Part shown: positions 20,160-21,953 of the stretch, piece after piece | How the letters are laid out: every line of letters starts with the position of its first letter | How positions within the stretch are numbered: the stretch's first letter is position 1 | Assembly: GCF_900115495.1 (NCBI RefSeq) | Contig: NZ_FOWR01000007.1 | Location: 1 to 64,000 of the forward strand | DNA length: 64,000 bases | Source: Enterovibrio norvegicus DSM 15893 | GTDB lineage: Bacteria > Pseudomonadota > Gammaproteobacteria > Enterobacterales > Vibrionaceae | Reading direction: 5' to 3' | Translations under genes and position numbers: made by a program | Notes under the pieces: generated by a model | Told to the model about the DNA's origin: nothing | What the model saw: only the letters and a program-made list of their open reading frames with translations | The model's database searches: none

Positions 20160-20261
20160 AGAAGCTAGAAGCTAGAAGCTAGAAGCTAGAAGCTAGAAGC
20201 TAGAAGCTAGAAGCTAGAAGCTAGAAGCTAGAAGCTAGAAGCTAGAAGCTAGAAGCTAGAA
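20160..20261. repeat. Heptanucleotide tandem repeat (AGAAGCT) x 14.6
   Basis: Fourteen perfect copies of AGAAGCT plus a partial copy lie between the chitinase stop codon (2 bp away) and its terminator. Every copy junction contains TAG, and because 7 is not a multiple of 3 the tract stops all three forward frames. Perfect copies suggest recent slippage and likely length variation. Confidence 0.97.
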
Positions 20262-20271
20262 AAAGTAAATC

Positions 20272-20301
20272 AAAGCCAACTCTTCATGAGTTGGCTTTTT
20301 T
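20272..20301 (+). terminator. Terminator after the chitinase gene
   Basis: A perfect 11-bp stem AAAGCCAACTC / GAGTTGGCTTT with loop TTCAT is followed by TTT. It lies immediately 3' of the convergent DUF4157 gene and may work for both, although the reverse T-tract is weaker. Confidence 0.88.
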
Positions 20302-20303
20302 CG

Positions 20304-21953
20304 TTAGAACAGGCGCAAACCGATGCTAAACATCAAACGGTGCAGTTCAGGATCTTTATTCACAATGTCTTTTACAACATTGTATTCAATACCAACAAAC
20401 GCCAACTCATCGATGCTATAACGCAATCCCGCACTGCCCATTATCCCAGCACCCAACGCGTTTTTCCCTGCTGTCGGATTCAAATCCCCAATGGTCGCAC
20501 CCGTTTCTAAGTACAGCTCGGGAAGCCATACTTTTTGCGTGTTGAGTTCTAAGCCAAACCCCGCAGCGCCTGCTTTAACAGGTTTACTGATTTCGGCACG
20601 TCCCATGCCATACAACCGTAATTTATTGCCTAACAACGAATAGAACTGATGACGGTAGCGTAAATCGAAACCCACCGACCCTTGGCCAGCTTGATCGTCG
20701 GCAGAGGTTGTGCCTGTTGTATTCATACCGAGCACCAACGCATTGGTCTTTATCCATGACGCCAACGCATTTGGGCTTTCCCATATCAGCCCAAACCCAC
20801 CCGCACTGCCTTGACCTGAGGCATCAAGCATCTGTTTCACAAACTCTGTACATTGCAGCCCAAACAGGTTGTATTTAGGACGATTTTTACACGTGGTTAC
20901 AGCGAACTTGAATGCAGCATTAAACTGCTCAGCTGTTAGCTCAAACGTTTGTCTCGCGGGGTTGTTTTTATTGTGACTTGTGATGTCTGGATGATGCACA
21001 CAGCCGTCCACATCGGCTTTCATGTCATTCGCGTAGTATCCCTCTTTTGGCCAAAAACCATAGGTCCACAAGTTGCCTTTGTCATCTTGTAACCTTACCC
21101 ACGCATGACCCACCTTTTGTGTGGCGGGTAACAGCAGAAATGGCCCTTCTTTATCAGCAAACGCCGTGATAGAAAATTTGCCTGTTTCCGTGGTATTGCC
21201 GTCTTTTATTGAGCAGTTTTGTGAGCAGTCCGCTTCACTTAAAAACTGCGTTGTAGAGCGCCCCGCTTGTGATTGTTGCACCACATGCGTGAGTTCATGC
21301 GCCAGTGTCTTGCGTCCCGAAGCATGATCTGGCTGGAATTCCCCGCGATTAAACACAATGTTGCTTCCCACGGTGTACGCTCTTGCATTTAAACCAGACG
21401 CCTTGCTCGCGGCTCGAGAGTCGGTATGAAGACGAACATGCGAGAAGTCATAACCAAAGCGTTGTTCCATGTCTTGTTTAAGGGGCGCATCTAAGGGCGT
21501 CCCGCCACTGGGGATAATGCTTTGAAGGTTTCTCGGGATTTGCGGCCTCGACAAGCGAACTGTATGTCGAGAAGGCGAAGCGTCAATGAGCTTCTTCTGA
21601 CAAACAAGGCAAGGGGGTGCCGCTGGCGAACGTATGACTTGCTCCGCCACGGAGTCTGCTTCCCGTTCTGCACTCTCCGAATTGAACGTCTCTTTACTGA
21701 TCATTTGAATACGAATCGGCGACGTTTCAATTTCCCGCCGGCCCAACACCGACTGAGAACACGCAGCGGTTGGTAAGTCGCTTTCATGCTGTTTATTCAG
21801 AGGAACATTAGTGTGCTGAGGAACAGCAGCGTGCAGAGGACCAAGGGCGTGACGCTGTCTTTCTAACATCGCGCTTCGGGCACCTCGAGAGGCAAGAGAA
21901 AAGCCGTTCGTCAACGCTGGCTCTCCCCCGCATTTGTGACAACTCGCATACAT
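20304..21953 (-). CDS. DUF4157 (eCIS-core-type, HELTH) protein with hydrolase-like and beta-rich C-terminal domains
   Basis: The protein has 549 residues and no signal peptide. Two CxxC pairs (C5/C8 and C115/C118) flank a low-complexity N-terminus. The segment around AEREADSVAEQV and residues ~153-228 form a DUF4157 domain with HELTH at 219-223, a metzincin-like zinc site. A middle region has H283 in VGHAWVRL, WTYGFWPKEGYY, and C368 in FGLQCTEFVKQ, suggesting a papain/NlpC-like fold. Residues ~425-549 show alternating strands ending in LRLF, like a small outer-membrane barrel or lectin-like beta domain. DUF4157 proteins are associated with contractile injection systems and secreted toxins; no such system is in this window. 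ATG 21953 has GAGGAAGTG upstream. Function is unknown. Confidence 0.7.
   Translation of the reverse strand: MYASCHKCGGEPALTNGFSLASRGARSAMLERQRHALGPLHAAVPQHTNVPLNKQHESDLPTAACSQSVLGRREIETSPIRIQMISKETFNSESAEREADSVAEQVIRSPAAPPCLVCQKKLIDASPSRHTVRLSRPQIPRNLQSIIPSGGTPLDAPLKQDMEQRFGYDFSHVRLHTDSRAASKASGLNARAYTVGSNIVFNRGEFQPDHASGRKTLAHELTHVVQQSQAGRSTTQFLSEADCSQNCSIKDGNTTETGKFSITAFADKEGPFLLLPATQKVGHAWVRLQDDKGNLWTYGFWPKEGYYANDMKADVDGCVHHPDITSHNKNNPARQTFELTAEQFNAAFKFAVTTCKNRPKYNLFGLQCTEFVKQMLDASGQGSAGGFGLIWESPNALASWIKTNALVLGMNTTGTTSADDQAGQGSVGFDLRYRHQFYSLLGNKLRLYGMGRAEISKPVKAGAAGFGLELNTQKVWLPELYLETGATIGDLNPTAGKNALGAGIMGSAGLRYSIDELAFVGIEYNVVKDIVNKDPELHRLMFSIGLRLF

Follow-up and report, generated by a model that had tools for sequence, protein, structure and literature searches.

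A candidate contractile injection system cargo in Enterovibrio norvegicus that joins an eCIS_core domain to a predicted permuted NlpC/P60-like domain and a putative barrel tail

Architecture of the protein

We analyzed a 64,000-nucleotide stretch of the Enterovibrio norvegicus DSM 15893 genome (positions 1 to 64,000 of NZ_FOWR01000007.1; the window), which is contig C44; the draft assembly comprises 99 contigs and 5.4 Mb. Between a chitinase gene and an ABC exporter gene lies an open reading frame (ORF) for a putative effector with an eCIS_core (DUF4157) domain, a domain already known from cargo of extracellular contractile injection systems (eCISs; PMC8213781 and PMC11297309, in the text available). 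An initial annotation made from the sequence alone had described a three-part protein here, and its observations are confirmed: the ORF, here placed on the minus strand, the HELTH motif, the CxxC pairs, H283, C368 and the terminal Phe are all in place (Table 1). The DUF4157 assignment is also sound, as PF13699 scored 109 bits (cut-off 22) and a separate whole-genome search placed the domain identically. Apart from eCIS_core, no Pfam family passed its cut-off; OMP_b-brl, RTE1 (which we take to be the TMEM222 family) and Amidase_6 matched below theirs. TMEM222 belongs to an NlpC/P60-like cluster and Amidase_6 to the papain-like families, according to the available text of PMC10318531. No useful match came from PADLOC, NCBIfam or PHROGs.

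Residues 1-133 are variable and, by analogy with AlgoCIS cargo, probably form the loading region. The CxxC pairs lie within them, at 21930-21941 and 21600-21611. Cys pairs also precede the core domain in the orthologues and in two further eCIS_core proteins of this genome (L005 and L006, below), and it is possible that those in the loading region form a metal site.

Table 1. Features of the putative effector gene and its 3' flank (window coordinates).
Feature	Position	Strand	Remarks
Putative effector gene (eCIS_core, permuted NlpC/P60-like domain, barrel)	20304..21953	minus	ATG start, 549 amino acids
Variable N-terminal region, residues 1-133	21555..21953	minus	CxxC pairs at residues 5-8 and 115-118; EREAD motif at 96-100
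eCIS_core / DUF4157 domain, residues 153-230	21264..21497	minus	PF13699, E 1.4e-31
HELTH (HExxH) motif, residues 219-223	21285..21299	minus	inside DUF4157 domain
Predicted permuted NlpC/P60-like catalytic domain, ~residues 258-405	20739..21182	minus
H283 codon, predicted catalytic His	21105..21107	minus	invariant, 22 rows
C368 codon, predicted catalytic Cys	20850..20852	minus	invariant, 22 rows; helix start in model
Putative eight-stranded barrel tail, residues 406-549	20307..20738	minus
Two-way terminator-like stem-loop between convergent chitinase and effector genes	20272..20298		suggestive only

An eCIS locus in the same genome

Contig C6 of the source genome carries an eCIS locus with sheath, tube and Baseplate_J genes in a single same-strand run. 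A structural-family scan covering four genes of this run gave 35.2 bits for Phage_sheath_1C (cut-off 26.9), 131.6 for the gp19 tube (28.2) and 23.3 for Baseplate_J (21.1); Phage_sheath_1, at 29.9, fell slightly below its 31.4. On this 330 kb contig the run spans ~141 to 168 kb, which puts 140 kb or more between it and the window gene. The initial annotation had reported no injection-system genes nearby and had proposed a genome search for tube and sheath genes. We found neither a sheath nor a second eCIS_core match in the window, but the proposed search turned up both structural genes on C6. Its view of a protein alone, without an injection system, is contradicted by the C6 locus and by the operon position of the gene in Veronia (below).

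Four eCIS_core proteins are encoded in the source genome: two in the C6 run, one on contig C50 and the window protein. The C6 proteins (L005, 9244-11028; L006, 6184-7542) carry the toxin domains Tox-WTIP and Ntox16. The C50 protein (L007, 9472-11310), off the operon contig, matches the deaminase domain XOO_2897-deam at 28 bits (cut-off 27).

A sheath search matched 14 of the 18 Enterovibrio-genus genomes. Twelve matches were near full length, three of these (G020, G028, G030) containing one TAG; the match was in two pieces in G029 and weak and partial in G032. All five carriers of the effector gene in the genus fall within the 13 genomes with a sheath (the twelve plus G029). In the available text of PMC11297309, 88% of eCIS-associated toxins (EATs) are encoded no more than about ten genes from the operon, a placement that is usual, not defining. 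The effector gene lies within that distance in Veronia and beyond it in the source genome (C44 versus C6) and in E. norvegicus, where strain FF-33 has both on one contig with ~1.17 Mb between them.

Orthologues and insertion site

At a threshold of E 0.001, 26 of 329 Vibrionaceae genomes match the protein. The C-terminal part is present in six, the source included (G000, G017, G019, G028, G029 and G100, the last being Veronia), and the fusion that the initial annotation suggested looking for recurs in the family; in the remaining 20 the match is confined to the eCIS_core part and its surroundings. The protein occurs in the named relatives Enterovibrio baiacu, E. norvegicus and Veronia pacifica. 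In Veronia, on a contig that starts within a Baseplate_J-type gene, the effector gene comes directly after eCIS genes, behind a gene for a 1111-amino-acid protein that shares 61% identity with the corresponding C6 protein. This copy is interrupted in its 3' part, with the last part in a different frame.

The chitinase and ABC exporter genes share one contig in 14 of the 18 genus genomes, with the effector gene between them in five and absent in nine. At the nine gene-free sites, 163-313 bp separate the stretches matched to chitinase and exporter. Both window flanks are similar to seven of these sites, and the chitinase-side flank alone to two.

The ratio of nonsynonymous to synonymous substitution rates (dN/dS) against E. 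baiacu was 0.149 for residues 1-133, 0.074 for eCIS_core, 0.045 for the catalytic domain and 0.051 for the tail, values that are rough with dS near 1 (0.73-1.19; catalytic 0.93, tail 1.19). With two more distant copies, dS was saturated, without a value, in six of eight segment comparisons. Because orthologues retain the parts and dN/dS against E. baiacu is low, the architecture is not a product of chance. On the same low ratio we reject a decayed gene.

The predicted catalytic domain and its relatives

Residue order and the structure model assign the middle domain to the permuted, His-first NlpC/P60-like type. H283 precedes C368, so the Cys-before-His order of a canonical NlpC/P60 peptidoglycan peptidase, and with it the usual order of the papain/NlpC-like enzymes to which the initial annotation likened this region, does not apply. 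The three parts, the Cys/His hydrolase-like middle, the barrel-like tail and the effector-like character proposed there are supported. The predicted structure resembles TseH from Vibrio cholerae (PDB 6v98), a solved permuted NlpC/P60 member with the same GHA...YG...NC..F order. The outcome named in the initial annotation as refuting, a fold lacking hydrolase geometry, did not appear, judging by this match and by the invariance of H283 and C368.

We searched with profile A1 (six orthologues), profile A3 (A1 plus a relative in G987 and two plasmid-borne relatives) and the larger A5. A1 recovered the source genome alone among 369 class genomes, and that genome and G987 among 398 phylum genomes. 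With A3, 15 of the 398 phylum genomes had a match at E 0.01; with A5, 8 of 219 class genomes did so at E 0.001, the source counted in each. Only H283, G299 and C368 are invariant in 22 aligned rows, and the same three in another 22-row set; alignments A4 and A8 leave out L068, the three weakest A3-search matches and, from the A5 search, L075 (= L083) and L077-L079, of which L078 and L079 are included in alignment A10 and the tree. L011, whose match covers query residues 96-227 only, was left out as well. Since the profiles that gathered these rows already held the His and Cys, profile-profile tests restricted to the orthologues are a fairer guide. These gave hhalign probabilities of 94.3 with the L060-L063 set, which includes XVIPCD effectors (L060, L062) and a type VI secretion system (T6SS) effector (L061), and 93.7 with the L066/L080-L082 set. 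The mixed profile reached TseH relatives at E 6-7e-5, but the orthologues matched them directly at a probability of only 14. In the tree, full support is limited to 4 of 21 inner branches, and the deep branches lack resolution; four eCIS rows form one supported clade.

The relatives differ in their delivery parts. The L061 effector sits in a VgrG-DUF4123-effector-PAAR cluster, adjoining a small membrane-protein-like gene. PF20410 (XVIPCD) is present in all three XVIPCD effectors scanned (two of L060, one of L062), which adjoin lipoprotein-like genes; both gene labels were given by eye, and none of the three lipoprotein-like genes has a Pfam assignment. The domain is C-terminal in RHS proteins (L067, L069) and N-terminal in large proteins of L038, L040, L065 and L081, of which the L040 protein is annotated as calcium-binding and the L038 protein is RTX-like by eye. 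No Pfam family passed its cut-off over the His-first domain in the 11 relatives scanned (L040 and L080-L082 left out), and a domain recurring in T6SS, XVIPCD, RHS and calcium-binding or RTX-like proteins merits its own model. Further His-first relatives for such a model are at L064, L066, L070 and L071, besides L038, L060-L062, L067 and L069. L062 (5157-11006) holds three copies in 6 kb with lipoprotein-like genes near, and XVIPCD in the middle copy, the sole one scanned. A plasmid search with P0002 returned 19 records: itself and 18 in which the match is restricted to the region behind the toxin domain. No relative of the catalytic domain turned up in phage records or in two viral_contigs scans.

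Proposed function and alternatives

We consider it reasonably likely that the protein, whose gene lies far from the eCIS locus of this bacterium, is a cargo effector of that system and combines a lipid-cleaving Cys-His enzyme with a membrane barrel. Behind this reading stand computational observations: the domain architecture, an eCIS locus elsewhere in the genome, the Veronia operon position, the invariant His and Cys and the model's likeness to TseH. The N-terminal region and DUF4157 domain would load the protein into the tube lumen; DUF4157 proteins fill the eCIS tube in the available text of PMC8894135. After injection, C368 would act as nucleophile and H283 as base. Judging from Tox-Act1 and TseH, the predicted substrates are phospholipid or lipoprotein acyl bonds in the target envelope. 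Tox-Act1, a permuted NlpC/P60 toxin, cuts phosphatidylglycerol and phosphatidylethanolamine and requires its His and Cys, and in a fluorescence assay TseH was active at pH 8.9 only and Tox-Act1 was inactive (PMC12994826, text available).

On the structure model, the tail may be an eight-stranded barrel that sits in membranes, where it would anchor the enzyme in, or insert it into, the target membrane. PF13505 scored 15.2-16.5 bits for the window protein or its parts (cut-off 28.7), with the best orthologue at E 0.00038. Eight-stranded outer membrane proteins (PagL, the OprF N-domain, OmpW, OmpA) differ in that no Pfam model passes for the window protein (16.5 bits versus 28.7) and its barrel is fused behind enzyme-like and eCIS_core domains.

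Several points weigh against this reading. Loading, toxicity and lipid cleavage are predicted functions, and TseH had no lipid activity in a mass-spectrometry assay (available text of PMC12994826). The direct sequence match to 6v98 is weak (E 0.15), as is that of the orthologue profile to two TseH relatives (probability 14.1). No Foldseek match reached E 0.001, TseH is absent among the 50 matches listed, and all NlpC/P60-type Pfam families are below cut-off for the window protein. The His/Cys invariance is partly built in by the profiles used to gather the rows, and the tree leaves the clade membership of the window's catalytic domain unresolved. Barrel pLDDT (model confidence) is 43-72 in blocks of ten residues. 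One genome (G027) has a weak eCIS_core match and no sheath match. Among ORFs of at least 90 amino acids, we recognized no immunity-gene candidate beside the effector gene. A structure prediction from the six orthologues only was unusable (mean pLDDT 33), and neither the full protein nor A1, A3 or the barrel alignment drew a useful match in PDB sequence searches.

It is possible, though we think unlikely, that the same eCIS cargo cuts peptide or isopeptide bonds, in peptidoglycan or in host proteins as PPPDE/DeSI enzymes do, instead of lipids. The lack of a recognized neighbouring immunity gene is consistent with a eukaryotic target. TseH was originally proposed as an endopeptidase (PMC12994826), PPPDE (C97) is permuted, falls in the same cluster and has ubiquitin/SUMO substrates (PMC10318531; both in available text), and the relative L070 has a weak C97 match (E 3.3e-5; 24.2 bits, below the 29.2 cut-off). 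Yet Tox-Act1 and TseH were each active on lipids in one of the two assay types (PMC12994826), the lipoprotein-like or small membrane-protein genes seen by eye beside some relatives suggest an envelope target, and the barrel suggests a membrane.

A more specific form of the lipid-cleaving cargo reading is doubtful: the target's barrel-assembly machinery would plant the lipid hydrolase in the target outer membrane by way of a transmembrane beta-barrel. If true, this membrane-inserting phospholipase would represent a new mode of action among contractile injection cargo.

We find it improbable that the HELTH site is the working part, a metallopeptidase cutting its own protein or a target, with the Cys/His domain secondary. 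The motif is intact in the window protein and in all four other orthologues whose aligned stretch includes it. However, DUF4157 is common to cargo with very different C-termini, Cgo1 growth inhibition is independent of the motif (PMC8894135, text available), and constraint against E. baiacu is strongest in the C-terminal parts. An own-envelope, autotransporter-like outer membrane protein unrelated to eCIS would fit the order of passenger then barrel and the C-terminal Phe, but is very improbable given the eCIS_core domain, the Veronia operon position, a mean hydropathy of -0.28 over residues 1-40 with no hydrophobic stretch seen by eye (judged without a signal-peptide program), and a last strand that by eye lacks the usual alternate hydrophobic end pattern.

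Comparison with known systems

The window protein resembles EATs such as AlgoCIS Cgo1 and Cgo2, which, in the portions of text available, also carry DUF4157 with HExxH before a variable C-terminal part and a predicted disordered N-terminus. Unlike them, it is encoded far from its eCIS operon, and its permuted NlpC/P60 and barrel parts were not found described in the literature searched. TseH and Salmonella Tox-Act1 are T6SS rather than eCIS effectors. The available part of the TseH paper mentions neither DUF4157 nor a barrel; Tox-Act1, a phospholipase of the same toxin class, is likened here by description, not by sequence. The main text of PMC12994826 contains neither 'eCIS' nor 'DUF4157', and none of the open-licence PMC papers that our searches listed describes the three-part fusion in its title or abstract opening. 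The loading domain is of a known kind, and the combination looks new.

The protein matters because the activity of most predicted DUF4157 toxins is unassigned: a further annotated domain is lacking in 983 of 1130 (PMC11297309, text available). It offers a testable activity with named residues and links eCIS cargo to a toxin-type domain also present in T6SS, XVIPCD, RHS and calcium-binding proteins. Cargo-type genes this far from the injection machine would be missed by screens around the operon. A membrane barrel in eCIS cargo would pose a new question, that of how such proteins are loaded and refolded.

Surroundings of the gene

Three terminator-like sites were found, against a mean of 2.1 in shuffles. 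The stretch that separates the chitinase and effector stop codons holds 14.6 perfect tandem copies of the 7-base unit AGAAGCT, at 20160-20261. E. baiacu has a similar tandem array at the corresponding place.
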